A stretch of 33,067 nt of DNA from a virus, in IMG/VR virus record IMGVR_UViG_3300022934_003416, positions 1 to 33,067 of that record, one strand, 5' to 3'. The notes under the pieces are model-generated. The model did not search any database. It saw only the letters and a list, made by a program, of their open reading frames with translations, and was not told where the DNA came from. Shown here piece after piece: positions 4,188-28,771 of this stretch (positions within the stretch are counted from its first letter, which is position 1; every line of letters starts with the position of its first letter). Position numbers and translations under genes: made by a program.

Positions 4188-4216
4188 ATTCTACCATATA
4201 AATTGTTGATTGTAAA
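4188..4216 (-). promoter_or_regulatory. Early-type promoter upstream of uvsX
   Basis: Reading leftward, -35 TTTACA (4216-4211, preceded by G), a 17-nt spacer ending TGG, and -10 TAGAAT (4193-4188). The element occupies most of the gap between the methyltransferase stop and the uvsX ATG at 4163. It matches at least five other sites in the window in sequence and spacing. It is of the T4 early type (GTTTAC -35) with an extended -10 TGn. Confidence 0.85.
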
Positions 4217-5404
4217 CTAAAAAAACGCTTCAAGTGTTGATGGTGCTGGTTCTGACCAGAACTTCTTTGTTTTATTATCTTGTACAGCAAATTCAGATTC
4301 AACTGTTTTACAATCTCCACCTAAAAAGCGTTTAACGTTTTCTGCCATGTCCATTGCAGTAGTAACTGGAACATTTTGGCAAATCATATTGATATTTTTC
4401 TTTCCACCAATAAGTTGGAAATCTTTTGGCATTTTCATAATTGACAATGCTTCACGTACATTGATATAACGATCTTGATCAGGGTGTGTAAGTTCAATAG
4501 GGAAATGTCCAACAAAAGCACCGATAAAGTTTTTACCGATTTCAGTTGTCTTCCGCATAATGTTACCACCTGCTTTCAATTTATCTCCCATTCTGCGACA
4601 CTTTCGTGCATGGTTTTCATAACCTTTATCATCCATCCATTTCGCAACATCATGATAATTAATTTGCTTGTCTTCAATATAATGTAATGGATTGGTTGTT
4701 TTATCAATCATATTAAAGAATTCCATATGAGATATTCCACCATGTATTTCTTCTAAAACATACTCATAAAAAGGTTCTTTAGATGGAATATTTTCATTAG
4801 CACGAAGCTCAAACATTTCATCAAGTTCGTTAGTAGCTGCATTACGAATAGTATCTTCAATTTTTTCATGAGGCCTATTATAATATTCAAATACTGGAAC
4901 GTGATTACCTTTCCAAAAAAAATAAAAAGTACGATCACGAACTTGACTTAAACCATGAAGAATAGATTTAGTTTTGTAAATACTAAATGTATATCCATTT
5001 CTACGGGCCAGCTCTCTTAATTGACTGACTACTTTTTCTCCCATTTTACTTGCTAATCTTGGAGCATTTTCTCCCCAGAAAACTGTAGGTCTGATTGATT
5101 CAATAACATAGTTTGCGGATTTAACCATCCAGTCATTAGTACTGCTATCAGCGCTGCTGCTAGGAGAAAGGGAAGACAGGCCAGCACAAGGGCAAACAGT
5201 GTTGATAATGTCCACACTATGAGGTGCAAGATGCCCCATATCAAGCTTAAAGTAAGGAACGCTATTGTCATAGTAATTAAGAAGTTGCCTATCATTTGCT
5301 TCAAAGTCCGTATAAGATAAAATATATTCAGGACGTTTCCCAAACACATTTTCCATTGCTATTGTTTCACCACCTATAAGTGGAACTATTGATGCATAAT
5401 TCAT
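4217..5404 (-). CDS. Cytosine-C5 DNA methyltransferase homologue
   Basis: This 395-aa protein has the ordered motifs of cytosine-C5 methyltransferases. The catalytic PC is at residues 72-73 within CPCAGLS (motif IV), GENAP at 111-115 (motif VI), and QVRDR at 154-158 (motif VIII). A variable, presumably target-recognising stretch spans about 170-310. RYINVREAL...MPKDF at about 312-329 is motif IX, and QNVPV at about 343 is motif X. Motif I is unusual: residues 8-12 read PLIGG where FxGxGG is normal, so the SAM site may be altered. It is the last gene of the operon carrying the T4 alpha-glucosyltransferase-like enzyme, and its ATG overlaps the preceding stop (ATGA). In a hydroxymethylcytosine phage, ordinary C5 methylation would be blocked, so its substrate is an open question. 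Confidence 0.88.
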   Translation of the reverse strand: MNYASIVPLIGGETIAMENVFGKRPEYILSYTDFEANDRQLLNYYDNSVPYFKLDMGHLAPHSVDIINTVCPCAGLSSLSPSSSADSSTNDWMVKSANYVIESIRPTVFWGENAPRLASKMGEKVVSQLRELARRNGYTFSIYKTKSILHGLSQVRDRTFYFFWKGNHVPVFEYYNRPHEKIEDTIRNAATNELDEMFELRANENIPSKEPFYEYVLEEIHGGISHMEFFNMIDKTTNPLHYIEDKQINYHDVAKWMDDKGYENHARKCRRMGDKLKAGGNIMRKTTEIGKNFIGAFVGHFPIELTHPDQDRYINVREALSIMKMPKDFQLIGGKKNINMICQNVPVTTAMDMAENVKRFLGGDCKTVESEFAVQDNKTKKFWSEPAPSTLEAFF

Positions 5405-5976
5405 TTTCTAATATACCATGAAGTTCTTATTTGCATTACATTCGCTGCGCCATAAAAATCATTTACAGCTTCCCATACTTTAATTTTTTTTATGTTATGA
5501 TCTTTAACATAATCATGTCCTGCAATAGTTCCACCATCTTTTATTTTTTTATCCCATGCTTTTAAATCGTTTATTACACCATCATAAGTATGATCGCCAT
5601 CAATAAAAACAAAATCTAAAGATTTGTCTTTAAAATTTTCACTAGCTTTAACAGAATCTGACTCTAATATTGTGACATAGTCTTTTACTGGCTCAAGATT
5701 TTCATTTAAATATGTTGATATACTATTATCAATAGCATAAAAATCGATATTTTTATTGCTATCCTTTATTGCTTCAGCCATCCATGCAGTACTTTTACCG
5801 TGTAATATTCCAATTTCAACAAAAGTTCCACTATCTTTTATTCTATTTACTTCACTGCTATAAATGTCATCAAAATTAAATACTCCTTCTATATCTAGAA
5901 AATAATTATTTTTTAATCTTGTAGATGATCTATTTCCATAATATTTAAAATGATCTGGATCAGGAGTATACGACAT
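5401..5976 (-). CDS. Class I SAM-dependent methyltransferase (Methyltransf_24-like)
   Basis: This 191-aa protein has the SAM-binding pattern of small O-methyltransferase-like proteins. It has FVEIGILHGKSTAWMAEAI (motif I, about residues 52-70), an acidic strand end FYAIDNS, and SLDFVFIDGDHTYDGV followed by a GGTIAGHDY loop. It is a clear paralogue of the protein at 26398-26943, which shows VELGTWYGRSS, SLDFVFVDASHEYEDV and GGIIAGDDY. The family includes sugar and antibiotic O-methyltransferases, but no acceptor can be read from the sequence. It lies between a UDP-sugar dehydrogenase and a cytosine-C5 methyltransferase in one overlapping operon, so a sugar or modified base is a reasonable guess. 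It overlaps the dehydrogenase gene by 17 nt. Confidence 0.8.
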   Translation of the reverse strand: MSYTPDPDHFKYYGNRSSTRLKNNYFLDIEGVFNFDDIYSSEVNRIKDSGTFVEIGILHGKSTAWMAEAIKDSNKNIDFYAIDNSISTYLNENLEPVKDYVTILESDSVKASENFKDKSLDFVFIDGDHTYDGVINDLKAWDKKIKDGGTIAGHDYVKDHNIKKIKVWEAVNDFYGAANVMQIRTSWYIRK

Positions 5977-6778
5977 TTTGAGCTAATTCTCTTTCATCTT
6001 TTTCATAGTCTTTACGATAGTTATTATTTTCTTCAATAACTTTTTCTAAAACGGAAAAAGATTTCGCAAAGTTTGCAAACGCAGCCGTGTCTTTTGGAAA
6101 ACAAGCGCCGCCAAAACCACGCTTACCATCAAAGCCTGGAACACTAATATGTGACCTGCCAATTCTTGGATCTGTTCCAATTGCATTACTGATAAGACCA
6201 TAATTACCTCCAAAGTCTTTAATAACATCATAAAATTGATTCATCCACAATACCTTTGAAGCAAGAAAACAATTGATCCCATACTTTACAAAGCTTGCAT
6301 CTGTTGCGGACATGTGATAAATTGGACAAGGTTTACATATACTATAATTTATATAAATTTCTTCAAGTCTTTTAGTAGTTTCTTTTTTTCCTCCAAAAAT
6401 ATGCATAGAAGGATTTACAAAATCTTCACAGGCATTTTTTTCTGTTAAAAATTCAGGATTATAAACTACTCGACTTCCGCTTCCTCGCTTAGTAAGTTTT
6501 TCTACAATATCAGGAGTTACTGTAGACTTAATTACAATAATTCCAGATCTACGTTGTAGTAATTGTTTAACAGTATTAACTACAATAGAACAATCAATTT
6601 CACCATCTTTACCCATTGGAGTAGGAACACATACAAATGTAACGTCTTCTTCTAATTCTACATCTGTTAAAGATACATTGTACAATGGATCAATAATTGT
6701 TTTTTCAACTTCAGAACTAGAAAATCCATAGTCCACTGCTTTACCAACAAAACCGTGGCCGACAATTGTCATTTTCAT
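5960..6778 (-). CDS. UDP-glucose 6-dehydrogenase-like enzyme (short form)
   Basis: Predicted to oxidise a nucleotide sugar at C6 with two NAD+, normally UDP-glucose to UDP-glucuronate. The NAD-binding GHGFVG is at residues 7-12, FVCVPTP at 48-54, and the IKSTVTP strand at about 83-89. Two further family markers are YNPEFLTE at about 106-113 and the lysine in VKYGIN near 165. The catalytic cysteine C226 lies in GFGGACFPKD (221-230). At 272 aa it ends soon after the catalytic Cys block and lacks the usual C-terminal UDP-binding domain (family members are about 390-450 aa). GDP-mannose dehydrogenase is an alternative. The start has a GGAG site and forms TAATG with the epimerase stop, so the two enzymes are translationally linked. 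Confidence 0.88.
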   Translation of the reverse strand: MKMTIVGHGFVGKAVDYGFSSSEVEKTIIDPLYNVSLTDVELEEDVTFVCVPTPMGKDGEIDCSIVVNTVKQLLQRRSGIIVIKSTVTPDIVEKLTKRGSGSRVVYNPEFLTEKNACEDFVNPSMHIFGGKKETTKRLEEIYINYSICKPCPIYHMSATDASFVKYGINCFLASKVLWMNQFYDVIKDFGGNYGLISNAIGTDPRIGRSHISVPGFDGKRGFGGACFPKDTAAFANFAKSFSVLEKVIEENNNYRKDYEKDERELAQNVVYS

Positions 6779-7734
6779 TAGTTAACTCCATAATATGATT
6801 TATACCAAGTAATAAACTCTTTTACACCTTCTTTAATAGAAGTAGTTGGTTTGTAACCTAACGCCTGAAGTTTAGTAGTGTCAGACCAAGTCTCAGGGAC
6901 ATCTGCGGGATGTTTAGGTGCCAAAATGCGCTCTCCTTTACGGTCTAAGTTTTTCTCAATTTCATCAACAAAATCGATAAGATTTACTTGTTCACCATAA
7001 CCAATGTTATAAATCTCATGCCAGGTGTCAGTGTCATTAACTGTTTTATCTACTACTAATTCTATACCATTTACAATGTCTTGTACATAGGTAAAATCAC
7101 GTTTCATATCACCAAAGTTATAAAGAGTCATTGGTTCACCTTTTACAATAGCATCAGTAAATTTAAATAATGCCATGTCTGGTCGACCATATGGTCCATA
7201 CACTGTAAAAAAACGTAAGCCTGCTGAACGCTTAATTTTTGAATGAGCAAATTGACATTCATTTGCTCGTTTAGACCAGCCATATGGATTGTTTTGTAAA
7301 TCTGGTCGATCATGCTCATTCCAAGGCAATGGCTGGCCATGCATAACACATGAGCTCGATGCATATACAACTGGAATATCGCGCTTTTCACAGACCTCAA
7401 TAATACGTTGAGTACCAGTAATGTTAGTGTCGATATATGGCTGCGGTTCTTCTAAAGCGTGCCGTGGATTTGCATATGCAGCTAAGTGTAATACAACATC
7501 TACACCATGCAAAAAGTTTGTATTAGTATCTGTCTTATCAAAGTCTTGAATATCGGCTCTCATAATTGGGATGCTATGTTCTTTTCTTAAGATTTCAGCG
7601 CGGTCTTCTTTTAAGTCTGGATTATAATATGGGTTAAAGTTGTCAACACCAAGTACTTCCCATCCTAATTTAGCAAAGTGTCGTGCTGAGTGGAAGCCGA
7701 TCATACCGGCGATTCCTGTAATTAAAATTCTCAT
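6778..7734 (-). CDS. NAD-dependent epimerase, probably UDP-glucuronate 4-epimerase
   Basis: This extended short-chain dehydrogenase of 318 aa has the full family length. GIAGMIG at residues 7-13 is the NAD-binding glycine motif, LHLAAYANP lies at about 82-90, ASSS at 125-128, and the catalytic Y151-x3-K155 sits in YGWSK. VDNFNPYYNPDLKEDRAEIL (30-49) is characteristic of UDP-glucuronate 4-epimerases, as opposed to GalE or UDP-xylose synthase. Paired with the dehydrogenase encoded next, the route would be UDP-glucose to UDP-glucuronate to UDP-galacturonate. It follows the alpha-glucosyltransferase-like gene with an ATGA overlap. The exact sugar specificity is inferred from the family resemblance. 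Confidence 0.87.
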   Translation of the reverse strand: MRILITGIAGMIGFHSARHFAKLGWEVLGVDNFNPYYNPDLKEDRAEILRKEHSIPIMRADIQDFDKTDTNTNFLHGVDVVLHLAAYANPRHALEEPQPYIDTNITGTQRIIEVCEKRDIPVVYASSSCVMHGQPLPWNEHDRPDLQNNPYGWSKRANECQFAHSKIKRSAGLRFFTVYGPYGRPDMALFKFTDAIVKGEPMTLYNFGDMKRDFTYVQDIVNGIELVVDKTVNDTDTWHEIYNIGYGEQVNLIDFVDEIEKNLDRKGERILAPKHPADVPETWSDTTKLQALGYKPTTSIKEGVKEFITWYKSYYGVN

Positions 7735-8978
7735 GTGAAAAATTCCTCGAGTCCTTGTGGTTGGTTGCTAGTAGTGTTCAAAGCGAGATCAACAATTTCT
7801 TTTACAACATCTTCTCCATTAGAATGTTGCTTCCAAAATTCAAATGCCATCTCTCTCCAATCATCTCTCATCGCAGGATCATTTTTAAGTTTAGTCATAA
7901 TATCTTGGCACTCATAAAAGTTAGAATAGTCAACACCAATTGTGCCAGTATTTTGGCATTGACTAATAGGTTTACCCTGTATTTTATGTATGACATTATC
8001 GCAAAAGTGTTTATGGAATAAAGGAACTGTGCCAGACGCAATGCATTCTGCATGGCAGTTCTCAATGTTATCGCCGTATGTTTCTGCTTTTAAGTGGTAC
8101 AGGTCTGAGCCAAATGCAGATCTTGCCAATCGCATCATTGCCTCATCGTTTATATATTGTGGATAAAGATAAGCACCTTTTCCTTGTTCTTCTTTTCCGT
8201 ATAGATCTGGTGTGAATTTTACTTCATTATATTTTTTTTCTGGTCTAAAGTAATTTTCAACAATGCGACGATCTATAGGATTTTCTTCTTTGTTATCACG
8301 GTATAAAACTAATGGATATTGAATAGAAGCTTCTAAGCCTTCTAACACCGTGATAAATCCATTCTCCATTAAAGCATCTTGATGAAGATCAATCATTAAG
8401 CTTGGACCTTTCCACATTGCTGTGCGTCCAATCCAACGTACCATATTATCTTGTTGTTCTTTAATAGGCCGCCAATACTTTTGACGATGACCATCATAGT
8501 CAAAACCAAGTCCCATTTTTGTAAGCGGCGTTTGGATTTTATTTTTCTTCATAAACTTAGAAAAATCATTTTCTAAACTATGAGTCATAATCACATCGAC
8601 GTTTTCACATACTTCTTTTAAATTAGCATTACGTGCAATTGATGCTGCTTTATGATCAACATTAATAAAACATTTACGCTTTGTAATACGTTGTAAGAAT
8701 GGAATAAAATTATCTTGACAATCTTGAGGATGACCTTTTGATGGAACAGAATAAATGATAACTAAATCGTAATTGCTGTTAATAACATCAGCCGTAAGTT
8801 CCCACTCGGTACCCATCATAAATTGTTTTTCTTGGATTTCTAATCCTTTAGCGCGACCCCACTTTTTATCATAAGCAGAAAAAATATCTGCATCGGTAAC
8901 CTTTTGCATTTGAATAGCACATTGTGTTACTCCACAACCTTCAGTGCCGCGGCCTAATACGATGGCGATTTTAGTCAT
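7731..8978 (-). CDS. DNA hydroxymethylcytosine glycosyltransferase, T4 alpha-glucosyltransferase-like
   Basis: This 415-aa GT-B protein lines up along its length with T4 alpha-glucosyltransferase (400 aa), which transfers glucose from UDP-glucose to 5-hydroxymethylcytosine in DNA. Shared landmarks are RGTEGCGVT at residues 10-18 (T4 RGLEGCGVT), VIIYSVP at 73-79, and NVDHKAAS-IARNANL at about 106-120. Others are DVIMTHSLENDFSK at about 128-141, RWIGRTAMWKG at 171-181 (T4 RWIGRTTTWKG), LEGLE at 202-206 and YINDEAMMRLARSAFG at 275-290. It has its own early promoter and an AAGGAC ribosome-binding site. It is first in an operon with UDP-sugar enzymes, so the sugar moved may not be glucose. The T4 comparison is from memory of that protein; donor specificity cannot be read here. 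Confidence 0.87.
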   Translation of the reverse strand: MTKIAIVLGRGTEGCGVTQCAIQMQKVTDADIFSAYDKKWGRAKGLEIQEKQFMMGTEWELTADVINSNYDLVIIYSVPSKGHPQDCQDNFIPFLQRITKRKCFINVDHKAASIARNANLKEVCENVDVIMTHSLENDFSKFMKKNKIQTPLTKMGLGFDYDGHRQKYWRPIKEQQDNMVRWIGRTAMWKGPSLMIDLHQDALMENGFITVLEGLEASIQYPLVLYRDNKEENPIDRRIVENYFRPEKKYNEVKFTPDLYGKEEQGKGAYLYPQYINDEAMMRLARSAFGSDLYHLKAETYGDNIENCHAECIASGTVPLFHKHFCDNVIHKIQGKPISQCQNTGTIGVDYSNFYECQDIMTKLKNDPAMRDDWREMAFEFWKQHSNGEDVVKEIVDLALNTTSNQPQGLEEFFT

Positions 8979-9024
8979 ATAATTGTCCTTGATTATGCAT
9001 ATGTATTTATGATTTTATAATAAC

Positions 9025-9053
9025 ATTCTACCACAAAATCTTTATTTTGTAAA
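9025..9053 (-). promoter_or_regulatory. Early-type promoter of the DNA glycosylation operon
   Basis: -35 TTTACA (9053-9048, preceded by TTG), a 17-nt spacer ending TGTGG, -10 TAGAAT (9030-9025). The 89-nt gap between the dCMP deaminase stop and the glycosyltransferase ATG contains it. A CATAAATA at 9011-9004, 26 nt before the ATG, resembles a T4 late promoter with one mismatch and may add late expression; that part is weak. Confidence 0.85.
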
Positions 9054-9067
9054 CAACTTTTTGTATT

Positions 9068-9520
9068 TTAAATTGTTTTCATTTCTATAATATCTACATC
9101 TATTCCAACTTCAGCAAACATATCCATTGTACTTTCAAAAGATTGAATCCATTTTTCTGGATAATTAGCCACAGGAATTACTACTCTTTTAATTCCAACT
9201 TGAATAATACCTTTAGCACAATCTGAACAAACTGGTAATCCATACACATATAACGTAGCACCATCTAATGATACACCATTATATGTAGCATTATATATGA
9301 CATTTTGTTCAGCATGTACTACGTACTTATACTTTGTTTGCTTATCGATGTAACGAATTTCTCCATCATATATTCCACGAGGAAATCCATTATAACCTTG
9401 TGCAAGAACTTGTCCTTTAGATCCTACTGCTACAGCACCTATTTTAGATGATGGATCTTTAGACCATTTACTTACTTCTTTTGCTAAGTTTAAATAACGT
9501 ATGTCCCACTTATTTGACAA
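9068..9520 (-). CDS. cd: dCMP deaminase
   Basis: Zinc enzyme converting dCMP to dUMP, feeding thymidylate synthesis and balancing the dCMP pool. The 150-aa protein has the zinc site H69-A-E71 and PVCSDC with C98 and C101. It has SSKIGAVAV near 24-32, and GYNGFPRG at about 42-49, as in ComEB/dCMP deaminases. It is shorter than T4 Cd (193 aa) because it lacks insertions. Its start overlaps the dCMP hydroxymethylase end by 11 nt, and both enzymes act on dCMP. It closes the long operon that begins at the promoter near 13400. Confidence 0.92.
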   Translation of the reverse strand: MSNKWDIRYLNLAKEVSKWSKDPSSKIGAVAVGSKGQVLAQGYNGFPRGIYDGEIRYIDKQTKYKYVVHAEQNVIYNATYNGVSLDGATLYVYGLPVCSDCAKGIIQVGIKRVVIPVANYPEKWIQSFESTMDMFAEVGIDVDIIEMKTI

Positions 9521-10205
9521 GATGGAAATGCCTTTCGTATACGTGTAAGTTTTGGACCTGCCACATAATCATACCTGGCTCAATAACTCGTCCATTATCA
9601 TATCGATCAAGGTTAGTAAAATCAAAGCAAAGTTTATTTAAAACATGTAGCTGCCAAGCATAATCGTTTTTATAACCGTACACTACATCATTTGATCTCA
9701 TTTGAACTACACAATGAAGTAAACCATCACGAATGTAGTAAGTGACAGCGTTAGTACAAATAAAATCTGATTTTCCATTTTCACTATACTCCATCCAAAT
9801 TGATGGACGATTATAAATCATAGTAGCTCTACGTCCATCAGGGTTTAATAATAGTTCATCAAGAACTTGACCATATTGATTAAAATATTTATCAGACCAG
9901 ATTAAATGACCATAGTTTGAATTGATTTCACCATGCTTATTAGCAGCGTACTGCCATGCCGCAGGTGGAGAATCTCCATCAGTACCATTTATATCATAAA
10001 TATTTGTTGATTGTTTTTCATACCAAGCAATTTCTTTTTTAATGTAATCATCATTAGGTGTACCAAAGATAGAAGGTTCATCGGCAATAAAACTAGCACC
10101 AATTAATTCAATTGTTTGTTGACCTGTTTTATCAGTAGTAAATGCTTCATCATTTAATTCATTAATAAAAAATTCACGTATGTCTTTTACACTATGTAGA
10201 ATCAT
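9510..10205 (-). CDS. 42: dCMP hydroxymethylase, T4 gp42 type
   Basis: Converts dCMP to 5-hydroxymethyl-dCMP with methylene-tetrahydrofolate, so that the phage genome carries hydroxymethylcytosine. The 231-aa protein matches T4 gp42 (246 aa) at DKTG..TIELIGASF-ADEP-IFG (25-48), GEINSNYG (92-99), SDFICTN (146-152) and QMRSNDVV-GY-NDYAWQ (168-185). The catalytic cysteine is C150. D181 in NDYAWQ occupies the place of the Asn that makes thymidylate synthase prefer dUMP, and Asp there is the mark of dCMP specificity. Both positions are offset by two from T4 C148 and D179. The last 15 or so residues of T4 gp42 are absent. It overlaps the cytidylyltransferase gene by 14 nt. Confidence 0.93.
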   Translation of the reverse strand: MILHSVKDIREFFINELNDEAFTTDKTGQQTIELIGASFIADEPSIFGTPNDDYIKKEIAWYEKQSTNIYDINGTDGDSPPAAWQYAANKHGEINSNYGHLIWSDKYFNQYGQVLDELLLNPDGRRATMIYNRPSIWMEYSENGKSDFICTNAVTYYIRDGLLHCVVQMRSNDVVYGYKNDYAWQLHVLNKLCFDFTNLDRYDNGRVIEPGMIMWQVQNLHVYERHFHLVK

Positions 10206-10623
10206 TTTTGTTTAACTCACTTTCAAAAACTCGTTGGCGTAATCCTGATGAAGAAAATCTATGATCACGTTTATTAAAATAAAGCTGAATATTTCTACGT
10301 CTACATTCATCTTTACCTGTAAAATCTTTGTCTTTATACTCTTCACCAAGAATACGAACATCAATAGGATACATGTTTATTATATCAAGTAAATCAGCTT
10401 CTGTACAATAAACAATGATTTCATCAACATATTTTACTGCAGCTAATTGAGCATATCTTTCTACAATAGTTTGAACTGGACTATTTTTATTTGGGCGATC
10501 AGTAGATGGATCTACTTGTAAACCACAAATAAGATAATCACAATTTTCTTTTGCTTCTCTTAACATTGCAATATGACCTGCATGTAAAAGATCAAATGTT
10601 GATGCTGTTAAACCTACTTTCAT
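10192..10623 (-). CDS. Cytidylyltransferase-like enzyme (TagD / HldE C-terminal type)
   Basis: This 143-aa nucleotidyltransferase of the HxGH class activates a small phosphorylated polyol or sugar with CTP or ATP. The motif HAGH is at residues 14-17 after GLTASTFDLL, and the second signature SSSGLRQR is at about 124-131 (ISTTxLR-type). VERYAQLAAVKYVDEII is the usual middle segment. The length fits glycerol-3-phosphate cytidylyltransferase or the ADP-heptose adenylyltransferase half of HldE. Those two cannot be separated by eye. The neighbours are a cupin (ATGA overlap) and the dCMP hydroxymethylase, within the KdsA-containing sugar operon. Confidence 0.82.
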   Translation of the reverse strand: MKVGLTASTFDLLHAGHIAMLREAKENCDYLICGLQVDPSTDRPNKNSPVQTIVERYAQLAAVKYVDEIIVYCTEADLLDIINMYPIDVRILGEEYKDKDFTGKDECRRRNIQLYFNKRDHRFSSSGLRQRVFESELNKNDST

Positions 10624-10961
10624 GCGTGTCCTACCGTTTCTCTTTTAATATCATTATGATTAAATTCAGCCCAATATAATTCAAAAGCAACACCATCTTC
10701 TAAACATTCAAATTGATGATATACACCAGGTTTGACTTTCGTATATTGCCCTGGTTCCAAAATAGTTTCATCAATTAAATCGTAATCATTTTGCCATACA
10801 CGAATAAGCATACGACCTTCTTCAACATAAAAGCCATTCCACTTAAATTCATGACAATGCTTAGAGCAAACACCACCTTTATTCATTTCAATCCTATGGA
10901 ACTCTAAAACACCATTCATCTCTAGTTGTTCTGTCAATCCCCATACTTTACCGGCTTTCAT
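10620..10961 (-). CDS. Cupin-domain protein
   Basis: A single-domain cupin of 113 aa. Residues around 33-52 read KHCHEFKWNGFYVEEGRM (the HxH...E...G cupin motif 1), and PGVYHQFECLEDG at about 78-90 is motif 2 with its His. The fold binds a metal and occurs in sugar isomerases and epimerases of the mannose-6-phosphate isomerase type, which would suit the surrounding sugar genes. Catalytic activity is not assured. The ATG overlaps the stop of the 28-aa membrane peptide as ATGA. Confidence 0.75.
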   Translation of the reverse strand: MKAGKVWGLTEQLEMNGVLEFHRIEMNKGGVCSKHCHEFKWNGFYVEEGRMLIRVWQNDYDLIDETILEPGQYTKVKPGVYHQFECLEDGVAFELYWAEFNHNDIKRETVGHA

Positions 10962-11045: not shown

Positions 11046-11852
11046 TTAAAATCCTTTTATTGTTTTATTAATAAAATATATTTGTCTAATAGTTTCTGCA
11101 AAGTCTTCAAGCTTTAACATATTAGGTCCATCTGAAGGAGCATTATCTGGATCAGGGTGTACTTCTAAAAAAAAGTTGTCAACGCCCATAGCAGCGGCGG
11201 CACGGGAAAGACTAGGCACATAAGACCTATTGCCACCGCTAGAGTTACCTTGTCCTCCAGGCTTCTGGACTGAGTGTGTGACGTCAAATACCACAGGTAC
11301 ACCAGCATTATCAAGCATGTACTTGATACCAGTAAAATCATTAACAAGTGTATTGTAACCAAAACTTGTACCTCTTTCTGTAATCCATACTTCTTTTGCT
11401 TTGCGATCTTGTGTTTTACTTAAAATACCGTCTATATCCCATGGAGCCATGAACTGACCTTTTTTAATATTGATAGCGTCAATATCCATTTGTGCTACAG
11501 CAGTAATTAGGTCTGTTTGTCTACATAAAAATGCTGGTATCTGAACAACATCAACACTGCCATTTCTTACTATATCTCCAATTTGCCAACGTTCATGTAT
11601 ATCGGTAAGTATTTTAACATCTAAAGTTTTTTTTATCTTTTTAAAATCTTTTAGTGTTTTAAAAAACGATTCCCATGGATTAGGACCTATGCCACGAGTA
11701 CTATTAATATGCGTACGGTTAGCTTTGTCAAAACTTGCTTTAAAATAATAATTAAATTCATACAAGTCACATACACGTTTACATTCTTTAGCAATCTCTA
11801 ATGATTGTTCAAGAGATTCGTGCTGGCATGGACCTGCTATAATTCTTACCAT
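11046..11852 (-). CDS. kdsA: 3-deoxy-8-phosphooctulonate (KDO-8-P) synthase
   Basis: Condenses phosphoenolpyruvate with arabinose-5-phosphate to make KDO-8-phosphate, the first committed step to the KDO of Gram-negative LPS. The 268-aa protein has full family length. IIAGPCQHES is at residues 4-13, KASFDKANRTH-STRGIG follows at about 38-56, and TDIHERWQ, QIPAFLCRQTDL, TERGTSFGYNTLV and FDVTHSVQKPGG come later. C9 in the AGPC motif corresponds to the metal-ligand cysteine of the metal-dependent class (Aquifex type) rather than the Asn of the E. coli class. It overlaps the coiled-coil gene by 7 nt. In a phage it may alter the host surface or supply an octulosonate for another use. Confidence 0.93.
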   Translation of the reverse strand: MVRIIAGPCQHESLEQSLEIAKECKRVCDLYEFNYYFKASFDKANRTHINSTRGIGPNPWESFFKTLKDFKKIKKTLDVKILTDIHERWQIGDIVRNGSVDVVQIPAFLCRQTDLITAVAQMDIDAINIKKGQFMAPWDIDGILSKTQDRKAKEVWITERGTSFGYNTLVNDFTGIKYMLDNAGVPVVFDVTHSVQKPGGQGNSSGGNRSYVPSLSRAAAAMGVDNFFLEVHPDPDNAPSDGPNMLKLEDFAETIRQIYFINKTIKGF

Positions 11853-13370: not shown

Positions 13371-14567
13371 CTATTCTACCACATTTAATGAATCTTGTAA
13401 ACCAGCGTTATAGTCAATAGTTTCAAGATAAATAAAATTAATTCTCATGTTAATACGAGCTTTAATTGTTTTTTCATGTTTTGGCAAATATTCTCTAAAC
13501 CATTTTTTCTCTGCTGCGGGTGTTGGGTGATACATTACAACTACAGCTTTCATTTTCTTTGGAAAGTCTGCAGAAATTTCAAGCAAACGATCTAAACGAA
13601 AACCGCCGGAAGAAGCATGTATAGCAACAGTATCTTTATCTCTATATTGCTCAACAATACTTTCTAATTGTTTCTTACGTTTATCTTTCCAATTAATCCA
13701 TACTGCTCCAGGAGGAATAGCAATAGAATTTTCTATTTGTGTTTGTGCAGTTGTGATAACACCATTAGCTGCTTTTTTAGTAAATCCCCAGCTTAAAAGC
13801 TCTTGAATATTTTGTTCAGAACTAATTTCTAATCCTTCTTCATTACGTTTTAAAATAAACTTAATGGCATCATCTTTGTTTACAGACAAAGCAGGTTTGT
13901 CTGGTAAAGGATTCAAACGATTAGCAAGAGCTTCCAATTCAAGAGTAGTAAATGCTTTGTACGCAGATTTTGGAATGTATTGTACAGGAAGATACTTAGC
14001 TCGTTTTGACATTAACGTAGCAGTGATGCGGTGGTTTCCATCTAAAATTAGATGTAATCCTTTACCATTATAATCTTCTAAAACATTTACGGGTTCAAAA
14101 TCGCTAGTATCACCATTTAAGTCATCGATTTTTTCTTTAATATTTTTTAAATGCTTAGAGTCAATCTCATTAAATCGTACTTGAAATTTATCATAGGCTG
14201 CGACAGAATCTTTTTCAACTGATTGAATATTAAAAGACTTATTTAAAATTTGTTCTTGTAGTGTATCGAGTGAAGGTTTAATAAATCCTTTTAAATCTTT
14301 ACCCCCACCATTAGATTTATTATAATATTCAGAGTTATTTCTGGCATCAACTTCAAGTAGCATTTTTCTCTCCAAAGCTATCATATCTTGCGTTGTCCCG
14401 TAGGCAACTATTTCACGTTTTAACTCTCCTCTAGCAAAAGCTTCATTCATTTCTTTAGAAGTTGCAGAGGTGTCATATCCATCATATTCACTACCAGTAT
14501 GATAGCCAATATATTTTTTATTATTTACTGTGTTTGTCCACAGATATACAAATGCTTCATAATCCAT
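13371..14567 (-). CDS. GIY-YIG endonuclease fused to a ParB-like domain
   Basis: This is a 398-aa protein with two domains. Residues 1-90 are GIY-YIG-like: FVYLWTN at 6-12, KKYIGYHTG at 17-25, a catalytic Glu candidate E66 in ALERKMLLEVDA, and YYNKSNGG at about 81-88. Residues about 120-200 are ParB/sulfiredoxin-like, with LILDGNHRITATL at about 173-185 and VQYIP after it. The C-terminal 200 residues contain AIHASSGGFRLDRLLE and are unassigned. GIY-YIG nucleases in T4-like phages are often homing endonucleases (Seg family), but the ParB-like domain is not part of that family. It has a promoter of its own and is not overlapped by its neighbours. It could be a homing enzyme, a nuclease against competing DNA, or a DNA-processing enzyme. 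Confidence 0.8.
   Translation of the reverse strand: MDYEAFVYLWTNTVNNKKYIGYHTGSEYDGYDTSATSKEMNEAFARGELKREIVAYGTTQDMIALERKMLLEVDARNNSEYYNKSNGGGKDLKGFIKPSLDTLQEQILNKSFNIQSVEKDSVAAYDKFQVRFNEIDSKHLKNIKEKIDDLNGDTSDFEPVNVLEDYNGKGLHLILDGNHRITATLMSKRAKYLPVQYIPKSAYKAFTTLELEALANRLNPLPDKPALSVNKDDAIKFILKRNEEGLEISSEQNIQELLSWGFTKKAANGVITTAQTQIENSIAIPPGAVWINWKDKRKKQLESIVEQYRDKDTVAIHASSGGFRLDRLLEISADFPKKMKAVVVMYHPTPAAEKKWFREYLPKHEKTIKARINMRINFIYLETIDYNAGLQDSLNVVE
13373..13401 (-). promoter_or_regulatory. Early-type promoter of the sugar and dCMP operon
   Basis: -35 TTTACA (13401-13396, preceded by GG), a 17-nt spacer ending TGTGG, -10 TAGAAT (13378-13373). It lies inside the last ten codons of the GIY-YIG/ParB-like gene and starts the transcript for the Nmad1-like gene at 13347 and the genes after it. 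Confidence 0.83.
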
Positions 14568-14573
14568 AATATA

Positions 14574-14602
14574 ATACTACCATATTTCTTTTTAAATGTA
14601 AA
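14574..14602 (-). promoter_or_regulatory. Early-type promoter of the GIY-YIG/ParB-like gene
   Basis: -35 TTTACA (14602-14597, preceded by GG), a 17-nt spacer ending TATGG, -10 TAGTAT (14579-14574). It sits in the 40-nt gap after the primase-like gene and ends 7 nt before the ATG at 14567, so the transcript would be nearly leaderless. Confidence 0.75.
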
Positions 14603-15922: not shown

Positions 15923-16614
15923 ACTTTTTCTCCAGTTAAAATTTCAAATGTATCTTTCCAATCTTTTACTTGGATAGATTTACAGTCTTTATATTTTTCT
16001 AAGGCTCGTGCTAAAGGATAATCATTACCACCAAGTTGCATACTATCACCAAAGAATGTAATTGGCTTTTCAACCCACTCAGCAACCTGGCTTTTATCTG
16101 CACCAACAGGATAAATGTCAATTCCAGTTTCACCTGCAACCTGTGCTTCTAAACCAAATTTATTTCTAAATTTTTCTGCTATAATTTTCCTTTCACTTTT
16201 ATGCTCATCCCACTGTCTATACATGGCTCTATCTTCAATATTACAGTTACGACCAACAATACTAAAATTTACCATACCCGGTCTTTCTTCAATATGTAGT
16301 CCAGTTTTTCTATAAAACCTACTACTATCTAATTCATTTAGTAACCATTTTCTAGCACTATCTGGTAGTCGCCAATCATTTTCTTTTACACTTCTATTTT
16401 GTTGCCAAACAGAATTACCAGAACAATTATAAACCATGTATGCGAGATTGTACAATGGTTCTCCAATTTGTTCAATAGTTTTTTCTCTATCTGAACCAGT
16501 TACAAGATAAACACAGTTATGAGTAGCAAAGTGTTCAAACCAAGCTGCAAACTGTGAATCCATTTTTCTCCTACTTGGAGTAAGTGTTCCATCAACATCA
16601 AAAATATAATTCAT
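15919..16614 (-). CDS. Phosphomannomutase-like HAD enzyme
   Basis: This 231-aa HAD-superfamily protein is of the eukaryotic-type phosphomannomutase kind (Cof/IIB cap). DVDGTLTPSRR starts at residue 6, with catalytic Asp pair D6 and D8. LVTGSDREKTIEQIG lies at about 37-51, YNCSGNSVW at about 82-90, and FSIVGRNC and TGIDIYPVGADKSQ later. ITFFGDS-GGNDYPLA near 185-200 is the acidic motif IV. The enzyme would interconvert mannose-6-phosphate and mannose-1-phosphate, the precursor of GDP-mannose. A sugar phosphatase is the alternative. The ATG overlaps the gp43 stop (ATGA), so polymerase and sugar enzyme share translation, an odd pairing. Confidence 0.85.
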   Translation of the reverse strand: MNYIFDVDGTLTPSRRKMDSQFAAWFEHFATHNCVYLVTGSDREKTIEQIGEPLYNLAYMVYNCSGNSVWQQNRSVKENDWRLPDSARKWLLNELDSSRFYRKTGLHIEERPGMVNFSIVGRNCNIEDRAMYRQWDEHKSERKIIAEKFRNKFGLEAQVAGETGIDIYPVGADKSQVAEWVEKPITFFGDSMQLGGNDYPLARALEKYKDCKSIQVKDWKDTFEILTGEKV

Positions 16615-19148
16615 GCAAAAAACTCCTCAAGCGTTGCTTCTTCTTTTAGTGACCAACCAACAGCTTCTAATATAGGAGTAATTGGTTCAATAAAAGTTTT
16701 TTCAAATTGTGTGTCATAGTCTATGTATTTATGAAGGTTAAACTCAGGTGGCAAATATTCAGGAAAAGATATAACATTTTCACGAATAGGATTAGGCATG
16801 TTTAAATAAGTAAATTTAATCTTTTCACCTGATTGAATAGCGCCGTAACGTTTATCTAATGCTTTATCTTTTAGTTCATGGTTATAAAGTAAAGCACCAC
16901 GAACATGAATAGGTGTTCCCTTAGCATATATGTTTTTACGATCTTTCCATTTATCAATTTGGCTTACACCACGAGGAAAAGAAACTTTTTCAGGGGGCAG
17001 GCTTTTAAACCAATCACGAAACTCATCAATAAATTGACGTGTAGATTGCTGATCTCCAGTTACCATTATTTTAAAAATTGCTTTGAACTTATCACGTACA
17101 ACTTCGGGTGTAGAAGATTTAATTGCTTCAATACCCATAATCTTTAACTTAGGTTCAGCATATTGTACACCTTCATTGTTATGCACATTTAGAATGTATC
17201 TTTTTTTCGCAGTCCAAATACCGCGGTCAGCTATGACTTCACGACCCATTTCCATACGAGGGGTAAAGGCATTCATTTTATGGAAAAGTTTGTCATAAGC
17301 TGCCGCGATAACTTTTTCAAAGTGATCTTGACAAATTTTATCAAGAGCTTGAACTGGATTATTAGGTTTTAATTTATCAACAAGAGGACCCATGTTAATA
17401 TAAACAGAGTCAGTATCAATAGCCAATACATAATCTTTATCTGTTTTAAGTATCTTATTCATTTCTTCGTTAATGGCTTTTTCTGCCCACTTAATCGAAA
17501 GTTGACCTGTTAAAGTAACAGACTCAGCAAGTGCATTATCAAAATACTTAAAATATTTGTTAGCTAATGCACCATAAAGAGAATTAAGCAAGATTTTAAT
17601 TGCCATCTGATTATTTTCTAACTGATTAATTTCAGCTTCAAGATGTTTAGCATGTGTTTTCTCATATTCAGATTTAGCATCCAACATCTTACGTTTAATT
17701 TGTGAACGTTCAGCATAATAATCTACAATTAATTCTGGAATAATACCTTGCTTATCTTTTACAAACGGTACACCTGAAGCTGTAACAGAATATGTATCAT
17801 CAACTTTATCATTATTATTTAAATACTTTTCTGGTCCAGAAGGAAATCTAATATGACGATTACGTAACAAAGTTTCTGGAGAAATATTATATTGAACAAT
17901 AATATTAGGATATAGTGAGTTTAAATCAAAAGACACTACCCAATCATGACCACCTACTTGAGGATCTTTTACATAACCGCCTGCAATTGATTGGCGATTA
18001 TCAGAATCAGGATTACCAACAATAGCATAAGGAACTTTTTGAATTTGATTAATAGGTGATACAATCTTTTGACTTAACAGTCTACGATAAATAATCGATT
18101 CCCAAATACTTGTAGTTCCAAACGTGTCATTAAGATTAACACCACCTTTATAAGCCATAGTTAATGCTAAAGAAATCAAACCCATTTTCTCGTCGATACG
18201 ATCAACAAGCTGAACGTCTTTAATATTATAGTCAATAAACTTTTGATGGTTTTCTTTGTATAGCGTATATAGATTACCAAACTCTTCATAAGATAATTTT
18301 TTTTCACCTAACACTACATAAGCAATATGGTCAAGTTTATATGATTCTTGTGGACCATATGAGTATCCAAACTTTTGAAATAATTCTAAGTAGTCTGCTT
18401 GTTGAATACCAACAATTTCATATCCAGGTAATTCACGACCACCTTTGAATACATTACGTTGATTAACTAGTTTCCAAGGAGACAAACGTTTAACTGCTTC
18501 TTCAGATCCAAGCAAACGAATACGATTTACAAGATATGGAATATCAAAGAAGCGAGTATTCCAACCAGTAATTACATCAGGAAAATTCTTAGACCAGTAA
18601 CTAATAAATTTTACTAGAAGATCTTCCTCAGACTCACAATGGTGATATTGAATCAGTGCTCCGTCAAGGTCCAGTTCAGTCTCAGCAGGATCGTAGGCAT
18701 CTAAACCCCATACCTGATAGATTGTAGATTTACTAGACTTAAGAGCGATTGAGATAATAGGATACGCAGCTTCTTCAGGTGTAGGGAATCCATCATCACT
18801 TGCAACCTCAATATCGAAGTTGACAACGTTTACATGATTACGTTCAAACTGAATATCATTTGGAAACTTTTCCGTAATGAATTGATGAATATAGTTTGTA
18901 GTACCGTAAGCTTTAAAGTTATCCATTTCTTCGTATGTTTGAAGAAAGTCTTTTGCCTCACGCATGTCAGCAAAAGATACAGGTTTAATATCATCACCAT
19001 CAAAAGACGTCCATTCACTTGGATCTTTTGATTTTACAAATAGTGTTGGTTGAAATTTAATTCGATCTGAAATCGATGTACCATTGTCCGTATAACCACG
19101 ATACAAAATAGAATTGCCATAACGATTCACAGAAGTATAGAATGCCAA
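16611..19148 (-). CDS. 43: DNA polymerase gp43 (family B)
   Basis: Replicative DNA polymerase with proofreading. The 845-aa protein has the Exo I site FDIE with D112 and E114, the same numbers as in T4. Exo II is in TGWNTRFFDIPYL near 218, and Exo III is in YNIKDVQL near 310. Polymerase motif A is SFDLNSLYPN (about 405-415), motif B is KILLNSLYGALANKYF, and motif C is AIDTDSVY. The C-terminus LEEFFA resembles the clamp-binding tail of T4 gp43. It is slightly shorter than T4 (898 aa), with no intein or break. A GGAGG site is close to the ATG. The promoter at 19174-19202 is interleaved with a terminator hairpin. In T4, RegA lies directly upstream; here about 5.9 kb of other genes separate them. 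Confidence 0.96.
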   Translation of the reverse strand: MAFYTSVNRYGNSILYRGYTDNGTSISDRIKFQPTLFVKSKDPSEWTSFDGDDIKPVSFADMREAKDFLQTYEEMDNFKAYGTTNYIHQFITEKFPNDIQFERNHVNVVNFDIEVASDDGFPTPEEAAYPIISIALKSSKSTIYQVWGLDAYDPAETELDLDGALIQYHHCESEEDLLVKFISYWSKNFPDVITGWNTRFFDIPYLVNRIRLLGSEEAVKRLSPWKLVNQRNVFKGGRELPGYEIVGIQQADYLELFQKFGYSYGPQESYKLDHIAYVVLGEKKLSYEEFGNLYTLYKENHQKFIDYNIKDVQLVDRIDEKMGLISLALTMAYKGGVNLNDTFGTTSIWESIIYRRLLSQKIVSPINQIQKVPYAIVGNPDSDNRQSIAGGYVKDPQVGGHDWVVSFDLNSLYPNIIVQYNISPETLLRNRHIRFPSGPEKYLNNNDKVDDTYSVTASGVPFVKDKQGIIPELIVDYYAERSQIKRKMLDAKSEYEKTHAKHLEAEINQLENNQMAIKILLNSLYGALANKYFKYFDNALAESVTLTGQLSIKWAEKAINEEMNKILKTDKDYVLAIDTDSVYINMGPLVDKLKPNNPVQALDKICQDHFEKVIAAAYDKLFHKMNAFTPRMEMGREVIADRGIWTAKKRYILNVHNNEGVQYAEPKLKIMGIEAIKSSTPEVVRDKFKAIFKIMVTGDQQSTRQFIDEFRDWFKSLPPEKVSFPRGVSQIDKWKDRKNIYAKGTPIHVRGALLYNHELKDKALDKRYGAIQSGEKIKFTYLNMPNPIRENVISFPEYLPPEFNLHKYIDYDTQFEKTFIEPITPILEAVGWSLKEEATLEEFFA

Positions 19149-19427: not shown

Positions 19428-19456
19428 AGTCTACCACAGTTTAAACTAAATGTAAA
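19428..19456 (-). promoter_or_regulatory. Early-type promoter of the 62-aa gene
   Basis: -35 TTTACA (19456-19451, preceded by GG), a 17-nt spacer ending TGTGG, -10 TAGACT (19433-19428). It is followed by the AGGAGG ribosome-binding site of the 62-aa gene. The -10 is the weakest of the set. Confidence 0.72.
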
Positions 19457-25796: not shown

Positions 25797-26398
25797 GATA
25801 TAGCTTGTACTAATGCTTGTAATCTCATAACATCCATATCAATATCATGCTTTGGATCATGTGCAATAAAGTTTTCGCATCCTTCAGGAATAAAACTATG
25901 TTTCAAATCTGATCCCCAAGACAAACCTTCAATAAGTGAACGAGTATCTCTAACCTCCCACCAATCATACGGCATAGGATTATTGGTTTGTCTCATAATA
26001 TATTCAAGAAAAATAGGATCAAAAGTATTCCCACGAGTATATACTTTTTTTACATTTGCAGATTTATTTACTATAAAAAAATTATATAATTTATCAATTG
26101 ATACGTCATTAGGACTTGGTTTTAATTGCTGCTTTGCAAGTTCACCTTGTTCAGCCCACCAATTTAATGTGTCTTTATTTATTTTACGCTTATACTTTTT
26201 AACTTGTTCTTCTACGTTAAATTTAATTGTATGAGTATTTTCAACAAGCTCATCAAACTTATATGCAATATCACTTGTAAATCTAGATTCTGAAAAGTTT
26301 AACATAGCCATAGAAAGAACAACACCATCAGTCTGTTCTTGTGACAACGTTTCAAAGTCAAAAATGCATGCGTTGTTTAATCCATCATATGCTACCAT
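25793..26398 (-). CDS. dexA: DexA-like 3'-5' exonuclease
   Basis: A DEDD-type exonuclease of 201 aa resembling T4 exonuclease A (227 aa). The N-terminal acidic motif is FDFETL (about residues 13-18). NWWAEQGELAKQQLKPSPNDV matches the T4 WW-x-x-Q...A...PS-x-x-x-V segment in two parts. GNTFDPIFL near 125-133 is the second acidic motif, WWEVRDTRSLIEGL follows, and FIAHDPKHDIDMDVMRLQ carries the final H-D...D. I use the ATG at 26398, which overlaps the methyltransferase stop as TAATG, rather than an extension to 26416. T4 DexA is non-essential; the role is probably host DNA or overhang degradation. Confidence 0.87.
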   Translation of the reverse strand: MVAYDGLNNACIFDFETLSQEQTDGVVLSMAMLNFSESRFTSDIAYKFDELVENTHTIKFNVEEQVKKYKRKINKDTLNWWAEQGELAKQQLKPSPNDVSIDKLYNFFIVNKSANVKKVYTRGNTFDPIFLEYIMRQTNNPMPYDWWEVRDTRSLIEGLSWGSDLKHSFIPEGCENFIAHDPKHDIDMDVMRLQALVQAIS

Positions 26399-26943
26399 TA
26401 TTTTTTCACCAACCAATTAAGATAATCAATATTAATTATTTCAACTTTATCTTTAAAATATTCATCTACTGCGTTTTTCACGCCTTCCCACTTGTAATCA
26501 TCTCCAGCTATTATGCCACCTTTTTTAATTTTAGGATACCAAGCTTTAATATCTTTAAGCACATCTTCATATTCATGACTAGCATCTACAAATACAAAAT
26601 CTAATGACTCATCTTCATAATAAGATGAGGCTGTAATTGTGTCTGTAATATGTAATGTGTAATTGTCTTTAAAGGAAGATAAATTTTTTCTAAAATCTCC
26701 TGGATTAGGTATATCATAATTCTCATGTTCTGCACTACCTTTAAACCAATCAACATGGTCTATTTTAATATTTTTGCCTGAGCCTTTAACAATTAAATTT
26801 AGATAATATGAACTTCTTCCATACCATGTTCCAAGCTCAACAAAATGCGCTGACTGCGGCGCTTCATTAACTACCGTGTCATATATATGTTTACTTGATG
26901 TAGTAAACCACCCCGGTATTTTTTCCCATGGTCTATTAGACAT
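26398..26943 (-). CDS. Class I SAM-dependent methyltransferase, second copy
   Basis: This 181-aa protein is a paralogue of the methyltransferase at 5401-5976. Key blocks are HFVELGTWYGRSSYYL (motif I), KIDHVDWF, SLDFVFVDASHEYEDVLKDI and GGIIAGDDYKW. The ATG at 26943 is chosen because it forms TAATG with the gp44 stop and has GGAG 10 nt upstream; a longer frame to 26982 would run into gp44. It interrupts the otherwise conserved gp44-gp62 order and probably reached this position by duplication or exchange. Acceptor unknown. Confidence 0.8.
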   Translation of the reverse strand: MSNRPWEKIPGWFTTSSKHIYDTVVNEAPQSAHFVELGTWYGRSSYYLNLIVKGSGKNIKIDHVDWFKGSAEHENYDIPNPGDFRKNLSSFKDNYTLHITDTITASSYYEDESLDFVFVDASHEYEDVLKDIKAWYPKIKKGGIIAGDDYKWEGVKNAVDEYFKDKVEIINIDYLNWLVKK

Positions 26944-27881
26944 TACTGAAACTCCACATTTGCCATAATTTCTGTCATACAAGCTACAACATTTAATTCA
27001 TGATCTGCTACAAAAGCATTCTTATATTGATAATCTGCTAGAATAAGAACAACTTGTGGAATAGATTGAGGTTTAATATTTTCATACATTCTATCATAAA
27101 TACTTCTAAAAATAGCTGAAGCATCTGTATCAATATTATTAACTACCCACTGTCTCATCTTTTTAAAATCTTTTGTTTTAAGATAAGACATTAAGTTTTG
27201 ATATGATGTGTCGCTTAAATTTACAAGAATACCTGCATCAATCTTTCCACTAATCGCATAGCGTTGACATTCATTTAAAACTCTACGCCAGTCAGGACCA
27301 TATTTCATAATCACTTCAGCAAGAGTTTTTTCTTCATATTCTACATTTTCTTTTTGTAAAATATCTTTTAGTCTGCTCATCATCTGCATGGATAATTGTG
27401 CAAGTATTTTACGATCAGTGTTAAATTCATAAACTGAGCACCGAGAATGTAAAGGCTCAATAATACGATTCTTAAAATTGCATGTAAGAATAAATCTACA
27501 GTTATTAGAAAATTCTTCAATAAAACCACGAAGAGCTGGCTGAAAGGATTGAGCGTTTAGATAATCAGCCTCATCTAATATTACTACTTTATATCCACCG
27601 CCAAGAGAAACGGAAGATGCAAACTGTTTAATTTTAGTGCGAAGAGTGTCAATGTTACCTTCTTCAGAACCATTAATTAAAATGTAATCGAGGCCAAGCT
27701 CATTACATAAAGCTTTGGCCACTGTTGTTTTGCCGAGTCCAGCGGTTCCAGTAAATAACATATTTGGAACTTCACCAGACTCAACAATTTTTTGAAATAC
27801 ATTTTTAAGAGATTCAGGTAGGATAGTTTGTTCAATAGTTCTTGGGCGATAACGTTCAACCCATAGAAAATCATCATTCAT
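26943..27881 (-). CDS. 44: Clamp loader ATPase gp44
   Basis: AAA+ subunit that with gp62 opens and loads the gp45 clamp. The 312-aa protein is close to T4 gp44 (319 aa). It begins WVERYRPRTIEQTILP and has Walker A in FTGTAGLGKTTVAKAL (about residues 43-58) and Walker B VVILDEADYL (about 98-107). FIEEFSNNCRFILTCNFKNRI-PL-SRCSVYEF contains the sensor 1 and SRC box of clamp loaders. A weak AAAGGA lies well upstream of the ATG. It follows the 65-aa gene with a 16-nt gap. Confidence 0.95.
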   Translation of the reverse strand: MNDDFLWVERYRPRTIEQTILPESLKNVFQKIVESGEVPNMLFTGTAGLGKTTVAKALCNELGLDYILINGSEEGNIDTLRTKIKQFASSVSLGGGYKVVILDEADYLNAQSFQPALRGFIEEFSNNCRFILTCNFKNRIIEPLHSRCSVYEFNTDRKILAQLSMQMMSRLKDILQKENVEYEEKTLAEVIMKYGPDWRRVLNECQRYAISGKIDAGILVNLSDTSYQNLMSYLKTKDFKKMRQWVVNNIDTDASAIFRSIYDRMYENIKPQSIPQVVLILADYQYKNAFVADHELNVVACMTEIMANVEFQ

Positions 27882-28096: not shown

Positions 28097-28771
28097 TTAT
28101 TCTCCATATTTAGAATTTTTTTCCAACGCAATCCAATATTTCAAAGAGCTATCAATATTTTTAAATTGCGAAATTAGTTTAGATGAAATCTCAACATCAT
28201 AATTTCCAGCTAACATTTTTAGATTTGAGATGTTAAAGATAAAGTTGTATTTATCTGCTTGTGAATCACCTACTACATCAATAGAAAAACTATTTGCTGT
28301 AGAATTATCAGAACTTGTAACTGTTAGAGTTACAACACCATCACCCGGTGTAATAGACAATTCACTATGGCCAAGAGCTGATGCAGCTCGTTTAATTCGA
28401 TTAAGTGTATCATTATCTAAATGAAACTTAACATCAGCAACTGGCATATTCACTGGCTTACTTGGACTAGTAAGCATTTCTTTATCGGCAAAATAATACC
28501 TAATTTTTGACCGACCTGTTGAGTCGCCAATTACTGCATGGTCTTCATTAATTTTAAGTCGTGGTTTATCAACCAAACCAAGAACACCAAGAAACTCATT
28601 TAAATCATAAATGCCAATTTCTTGGTTAAATTCTTCTTCTACATCAACAGACGCAAGAATATTTTTTGCTTCTGAAATTGTAGTCATACTTTGTCCTGGC
28701 TTAATAACAATGTTCGAATTAATCGACGCAAAGTTTTTAAGAAGTTGAATTGTGTTTTCGCTTAGATCCAT
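28097..28771 (-). CDS. 45: Sliding clamp gp45
   Basis: DNA polymerase processivity clamp, a trimeric ring that also activates late transcription through gp55. The 224-aa protein is nearly the size of T4 gp45 (228 aa) and shares the clamp pattern: QLLKNFASINSNIVIKPG at the start, the central EFLGVLGL, and TLTVTSSDN later. There are no catalytic residues to check. GGAG is 9 nt before ATG 28771, and a TATAAT-type promoter is close upstream. The position between gp46 and gp44 is exactly that of T4. Confidence 0.92.
   Translation of the reverse strand: MDLSENTIQLLKNFASINSNIVIKPGQSMTTISEAKNILASVDVEEEFNQEIGIYDLNEFLGVLGLVDKPRLKINEDHAVIGDSTGRSKIRYYFADKEMLTSPSKPVNMPVADVKFHLDNDTLNRIKRAASALGHSELSITPGDGVVTLTVTSSDNSTANSFSIDVVGDSQADKYNFIFNISNLKMLAGNYDVEISSKLISQFKNIDSSLKYWIALEKNSKYGE

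Follow-up and report, generated by a model that had tools for sequence, protein, structure and literature searches.

Glucose, gentiobiose and arabinose are known on hydroxymethylcytosine. Virus-encoded glycosyltransferases acting on this base (5hmC), in interchangeable phage glycosyltransferase cassettes, were reportedly described by Pyle and co-workers in 2024; in their systems hydroxymethylcytosine reportedly arises through a methyltransferase and TET, hexose, HexNAc and heptose are reported, and no uronate is known among the sugars. The operon described here lies on 33 kb of DNA from an uncultured marine virus of bacteria with T4-type replication genes (IMG/VR record IMGVR_UViG_3300022934_003416, analysed over its full 33,067 nucleotides and called the window below) and links a DNA glycosyltransferase of the AGT family to a UDP-glucuronate 4-epimerase (UGAepi) and a UDP-glucose 6-dehydrogenase (UGDH). 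The evidence inclines us to the view that it makes an acidic product of the glycosyl-hydroxymethylcytosine type, with AGT transferring galacturonate to hydroxymethylcytosine.

T4 AGT binds the sliding clamp gp45 in vitro (PMC13216743), and its His114, His116 and His140 are reported as glucose contacts (PMC6024577, a second-hand source); the C-termini of T4 gp43, gp55 and gp33 are clamp-binding as well and can replace one another (PMC2988020). Phages RB69 and Thanatos carry pentoses on cytosine derivatives (PMC6024577 for RB69). The RB69 transferase, ORF003c, shares ~10% identity with an AGT relative, and the genes proposed to make UDP-arabinose resemble nucleotidyltransferases rather than a UGDH-epimerase pair (PMC6024577). 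An acidic sugar on phage DNA already has a precedent in Bacillus phage SP-15, in which phosphoglucuronated dihydroxypentyluracil places glucuronate on the DNA of a phage with its own UGDH (PMC5977210). An earlier interpretation of the window (the sequence-only reading), which proposed a uronic or derived, perhaps methylated, sugar on DNA, missed both this precedent and the sister phages, described below, that keep the epimerase-UGDH pair without AGT.

Transferase, acceptor supply and C-terminal tails

The window AGT matches PF11440 with an E value of 1e-27 (97 bits; cut-off 25), and its PDB matches are to T4 AGT only (E 1.7e-36). Its AlphaFold2 (AF2) model (pLDDT 91.6) superposes on DNA-bound T4 AGT (1y8z) with a Z score of 49.6 and a root-mean-square deviation of 2.2 over 380 residues, the next family reaching Z 24.8, and the UDP-site residues Gly15, Arg204, Glu306 and Glu311 (T4 AGT numbering, also used for the pocket residues below) are kept. 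The dCMP hydroxymethylase, encoded outside the range of the sequence-only reading, resembles T4 gp42 (E 2.9e-70; thymidylate synthases 2e-6 or worse) and keeps the T4 'NDYAWQ' motif, with Asp179 replacing the thymidylate synthase Asn; the NDY motif is found in 45/46 relatives. This enzyme is predicted to supply the acceptor, as hydroxymethyl-dCMP.

The C-termini of AGT (GLEEFFT) and of the C5-methyltransferase encoded at the end of the operon (TLEAFF) resemble that of the DNA polymerase (TLEEFFA). A single motif definition, made after these three tails had been seen, matched 58/71 AGTs, 46/50 C5-methyltransferases, 49/50 polymerases and 10/11 Dam-type enzymes, compared with 12 of 1552 other open reading frames (ORFs); the epimerase and UGDH families carry no such tail. 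Because the tail is the same as that of the polymerase, it would place AGT and the C5-methyltransferase on replicating DNA, by predicted clamp binding, and not on surface glycans. Clamp-like tails also occur on a Mom-type protein (locus L166), on the TAGT-family enzyme of L388 and on the GT4-type enzyme of L378. Similar-looking ORFs at L166 641-1450 (Mom family, adenine hypermodification), L187 6218-7027 and L203 6218-7018 have SLEEFFG/SLEQFFS tails and precede primase in sister phages that lack AGT. At L374 16607-18426, hydroxymethylase and dCMP deaminase are immediately followed by a 311-aa protein ending in TLESFM and by a 294-aa protein with weak likeness to PLP enzymes.

A surface glycan as the target of AGT and the uronic sugar genes would fit the usual role of UDP-galacturonate as a capsule and lipopolysaccharide precursor and the kinship of the epimerase with enzymes of bacterial polysaccharide synthesis; set against the fold match to DNA-bound T4 AGT, the upstream hydroxymethylase and a polymerase-type tail that the transferase carries and both sugar enzymes lack, this explanation is very improbable. 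Action of AGT on DNA, for which the same fold, neighbouring hydroxymethylase and clamp-binding-like tail speak, is held with high confidence.

Conservation, partner genes and the donor sugar

Marine viral contigs, of T4-like viruses, yielded 80 AGT relatives; contained loci were then removed and neighbourhoods counted, with loci having enough downstream sequence (informative loci) as denominators. The epimerase directly follows AGT (within 1 kb) in 79/79 informative loci; UGDH is present in 63/67 (one apparently absent UGDH is located elsewhere on its own contig), the C5-methyltransferase in 48/49 and the hydroxymethylase in 32/33. Purifying selection acts on the operon genes, with dN/dS at 0.04-0.19 in the listed pairs. 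In the PDB ranking of the epimerase, 5u4q (labelled a dehydratase) scored 231 bits, BcUGAepi 140, MoeE5 112, GalE at most 82 and UDP-xylose synthase (UXS) 68; the enzyme is closest to UDP-glucuronate 4-epimerase structures, not to GalE or UXS. Equivalents of BcUGAepi Tyr149 and Lys153 are present (Y151 and K155 here), as are those of T178 and R185 in 79/79 relatives, and the carboxylate ligand Ser127 is kept. UGDH has its catalytic Cys motif and NAD domain in 67/67 relatives.

In the donor pocket, for which residue counts at 114/140 and 117 include overlapping loci from the same contigs, the glucose-contact triad is incomplete: T4 His114 is Val (V107) in the window AGT and throughout its clade, positions 116 and 140 being still His, and Ser117 is Lys (K110). 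Where no sugar partner is present, T4-type and cyanophage AGTs retain His at both 114 and 140. Every AGT lineage with a 4-epimerase partner has one or other altered: Val114 is common to the window clade and GalE-paired AGTs, L108-L113 have Tyr140, and L271/L272 have Leu114 and Tyr140. The change at position 114 argues against the name 'glucosyltransferase', not against membership of the AGT family, and Val114, because it is common to GalE- and UGAepi-paired enzymes, suggests a galacto-configured donor. Lys117 is the sole pocket-adjacent column common to both uronate-paired lineages and does not occur in GalE-paired, T4-type or cyanophage AGTs.

Partner genes have been exchanged around the transferase. 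At L281, L282, L284, L287 and L290, AGT adjoins a GalE-type epimerase (135 bits to 2c20 and much less to UGAepi); in L282 and L284 the AGT stays while GalE replaces epimerase-UGDH, and in L281 and L282 the C5-methyltransferase still follows. The AGTs of L108-L113 (35% identity) form an independent, T4-sister lineage, which the tree joins to T4, albeit on a long branch, and occupy the same hydroxymethylase-epimerase-UGDH-C5-methyltransferase setting. Most cyanophage-type AGTs, including that of S-TIM61, have no sugar partner gene; in L274-L278 UDP-galactopyranose mutase adjoins AGT, and L271/L272 have a hexose 4-epimerase partner. The transferase itself also varies: at L378 (5695-8813) a GT4-type enzyme with the tail LENFMI directly precedes a UGAepi-type epimerase with UGDH, on a 20 kb contig in which no hydroxymethylase was found, and at L388 (6820-7632) a TAGT-family DNA glycosyltransferase with the tail SLEDFF stands in for AGT, flanked by dCMP deaminase and C5-methyltransferase and without an epimerase. 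UGAepi pairing requires at least 3 changes on the AGT tree. These swaps argue for functional coupling of the transferase with the sugar-nucleotide genes. A separate run at L358 (2304-8608) holds hydroxymethylase, GalE, a 370-aa protein (phrog_14998; single-sequence model pLDDT 39, unusable), UDP-galactopyranose mutase and C5-methyltransferase, and is a candidate galactofuranosyl-DNA cassette.

With the invariant 4-epimerase adjacency, the partner swaps and the pocket changes taken together, a donor other than UDP-glucose is probable; UDP-galacturonate in particular is a donor that we favour with some reserve. Another product of the pathway, either UDP-glucuronate itself or, through decarboxylation, a pentose of the arabinose or xylose type like that of RB69, is improbable as the donor. 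Although pentoses do occur on phage cytosine derivatives, and disturbance of the UGAepi carboxylate site, where the clade has Cys for Ser128, leads to decarboxylation, the operon has no UXS and its epimerase has Cys in place of the UXS-specific Glu at that position; moreover, the carboxylate-holding R185 and T178 equivalents are invariant, Lys117 fits an acid better than a pentose, and the stricter retention of the epimerase than of UGDH speaks against UDP-glucuronate. Synthesis of UDP-xylose or UDP-arabinose inside the operon was rejected, there being neither a decarboxylase nor the UXS Glu.

Several observations weigh against galacturonate transfer. The Cys (C129) that replaces BcUGAepi Ser128, a carboxylate ligand, is found in 79/79 relatives, and UGDH (272 aa; relatives 266-292 aa) is without the C-terminal UDP-binding domain (PF03720). 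In a partnerless AGT group (L285, L302 and others) residue 114 is Leu and residue 117 is Lys, so the correlation between pocket residues and partners is not perfect, and position 117 is Arg in the AGTs of Erwinia and Klebsiella. On the 97.8 kb contig of L155, which carries AGT-epimerase-UGDH, no hydroxymethylase or thymidylate synthase was found. Above all, about 80 sister loci, including the complete phage C48C1, read primase-epimerase-UGDH-uvsX with no AGT or C5-methyltransferase beside them, and neither AGT nor hydroxymethylase was found anywhere in C48C1 and six long sister records. The epimerase-UGDH pair therefore predates or is separable from AGT and can serve something else, and the site is a plastic spot at which AGT-epimerase adjacency could have been inherited. 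A uvsX-anchored census with AGT in 0/38 loci is informative only on this AGT-less epimerase-UGDH background, since nearest neighbours of C48C1 dominate it. A GT4 profile search of the AGT-less sister genomes gave no match. In C48C1, with neither AGT nor C5-methyltransferase at the shared site, an N6-adenine methyltransferase adjoins the polymerase instead.

AGTs in L285, L292, L294 and L301-L306 share Leu114 and a length of 474-486 aa; their C-terminal extension differs, and no sugar-nucleotide gene adjoins them; L304 and L306 have a distant epimerase far from AGT on the contig.

The sister loci bear most directly on the possibility that AGT, like its T4 counterpart, uses host UDP-glucose to glucosylate hydroxymethylcytosine, while epimerase and UGDH feed another glycan (host lipopolysaccharide or virion), their adjacency being inherited from the primase-epimerase-UGDH-uvsX order. 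The pair persists at this site in phages that lack AGT, a separate small protein of C48C1 bears a glycosyltransferase annotation, and the window also encodes a KDO-8-P synthase further upstream. However, no AGT of the clade occurs without the epimerase, AGT is retained in L282 and L284 when GalE takes over, the T4-sister AGT of L108-L113 sits in the same module, and Val replaces a glucose-contact His throughout the clade; T4-like glucosylation is thus unlikely, if less so than a pentose or glucuronate donor.

The C5-methyltransferase looks intact. A CmoX-like carboxymethylation by this enzyme was rejected: the position of HhaI Asn304 is Asn (QNVPV), not Arg, in all relatives. The small methyltransferase was found at this place in the operon in the window genome only, a private insertion, and the methylated sugar was rejected on that ground; what survives of the sequence-only reading is the DNA target and a non-glucose donor, probably UDP-galacturonate. 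A second Methyltransf_24-type methyltransferase lies at 26398-26982 of the window among clamp-loader genes, apart from the operon copy.

In the mechanism proposed for galacturonate transfer, the hydroxymethylase would make hydroxymethyl-dCMP, which would be polymerised into phage DNA; UGDH would oxidise host UDP-glucose to UDP-glucuronate, from which the 4-epimerase would make UDP-galacturonate. Held on the sliding clamp by its LEEFF tail, AGT would then move galacturonate with retention (alpha) onto hydroxymethylcytosine in the wake of the replication fork. In hydroxymethylcytosine, position C5 already bears a substituent; the C5-methyltransferase, which has a tail of this type too, may mark cytosines that escaped hydroxymethylation, and the small methyltransferase would be a private accessory.

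More tentatively, and at somewhat less than even odds, marine T4-like phages may carry at one site a swappable DNA-sugar cassette, in which AGT, TAGT and GT4-type transferases are exchanged with matched UDP-glucuronate 4-epimerase plus UGDH, GalE or UDP-galactopyranose mutase, giving DNA with galacturonate, galactose or galactofuranose; many modifying enzymes, those of C5-, Dam- and Mom-type among them, would be tethered to the replisome by a duplicate of the clamp-binding polymerase tail.

Operon layout and promoter-like motif

The five overlapping genes of the sequence-only reading are present, all on the minus strand with overlaps of 1 to 17 bases, and their family assignments hold (Table 1). 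The motif TTTACA-N14-TGGTAGAAT gave 12 matches (at most 3 mismatches) compared with 3.05 expected, a count reached by 0/100 shuffles, with an exact match also before uvsX (4216-4188). This specific promoter-like motif is real despite a generic sigma-70 scan of the window without excess over shuffles (44 matches, 44.5 expected). The copy before AGT agrees with the promoter proposed there; that it is the single promoter of the operon is unproven, because the upstream genes run in the same direction. Upstream of the hydroxymethylase lie an RfaE-domain-II-like nucleotidyltransferase (10192-10623), a WbuC-type cupin (10620-10961) and the KDO-8-P synthase (11046-11852). Cupin and nucleotidyltransferase adjoin UGDH in the epimerase-less sister phages L363, L374, L379 and L381, hinting at another sugar route.

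Table 1. Features of the operon and related elements in the window.
Feature	Position	Strand	Details
AGT-family (GT-B) DNA glycosyltransferase	7731..8978	-	415 aa; PF11440, PDB match, AF2 model
UDP-glucuronate 4-epimerase-type short-chain dehydrogenase/reductase (SDR)	6778..7734	-	318 aa; PF01370; T177, R184, Y151, K155 conserved
Short UGDH	5960..6778	-	272 aa; PF03721+PF00984; GFGGACFPKD and NPEFL present
Small Methyltransf_24 / CmcI-like methyltransferase	5401..5976	-	PF13578
C5-cytosine DNA methyltransferase	4217..5404	-	PF00145; PC, EN, QxRxR motifs
C5-methyltransferase tail LEAFF	4220-4234	-	
AGT C-terminal tail LEEFFT	7734..7751	-	sliding-clamp-binding-like; disordered in model (residues 407-415)
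dCMP deaminase	9068..9520	-	
dCMP hydroxymethylase (T4 gp42 type)	9510..10205	-	
Promoter-like element TTTACA-N14-TGGTAGAAT	9025..9053	-	repeated motif of phage
TTTACA-N14-TGGTAGAAT sites	4188-4216, 9025-9053, 13373-13401, 14574-14602, 19428-19456, 30756-30784, 32221-32249	-	
DNA polymerase gp43 tail LEEFFA	16614..16631	-	genome's reference clamp-binding peptide
gp45-like sliding clamp	28097..28771	-	predicted partner for AGT tail

Comparison with known systems

If galacturonate transfer is correct, an acidic hexuronate glycoside would join the sugars on hydroxymethylcytosine, altering DNA charge and the evasion of restriction and glycosylase defences; the partner gene and residues 114, 117 and 140 would provide sequence rules for predicting the AGT donor, and the clamp tail would be a portable marker for unknown DNA-modifying enzymes in marine phages. 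A literature search covering open-licence papers found no galacturonate glycoside of hydroxymethylcytosine. The systems of Pyle and co-workers reportedly differ in their route to hydroxymethylcytosine by methyltransferase and TET.

As in the CmoX system for 5-carboxymethylcytosine (PMC12783734), a C5-methyltransferase homologue is found in marine phages, but the Cx-SAM Arg of CmoX is Asn in the window enzyme, which is hence no CmoX. The UDP-glucuronate 4-epimerases BcUGAepi (6zl6) and MoeE5 (6kv9) share with the window epimerase the catalytic Tyr/Lys and the Thr178 and Arg185 equivalents, whereas Cys for Ser128, in an unusual CVMHG loop, sets the latter apart. T4 AGT (PF11440, PDB 1y8z/1xv5) is like the window enzyme in family, GT-B fold, UDP-site residues and hydroxymethylcytosine setting, and its known binding to gp45 (PMC13216743) parallels the predicted clamp binding of the window AGT; unlike T4 AGT, the latter is paired with epimerase and UGDH, has Val for His114 and bears an explicit LEEFF tail. 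The analogy with arabinosyl-hydroxymethylcytosine of RB69 (PMC6024577), drawn by the sequence-only reading, is loose: a phage-made UDP-sugar is proposed there too for a non-glucose sugar on hydroxymethylcytosine, and the genes again lie between polymerase and uvsX, but RB69 uses another transferase (ORF003c), nucleotidyltransferase-like sugar genes and a pentose, not a uronate. In SP-15 the base is thymine-derived, the glucuronate is phosphodiester-linked and the listed modification genes include no AGT or 4-epimerase; with that phage the window nevertheless shares a phage UGDH and, by prediction, an acidic uronic sugar on its DNA (PMC5977210).

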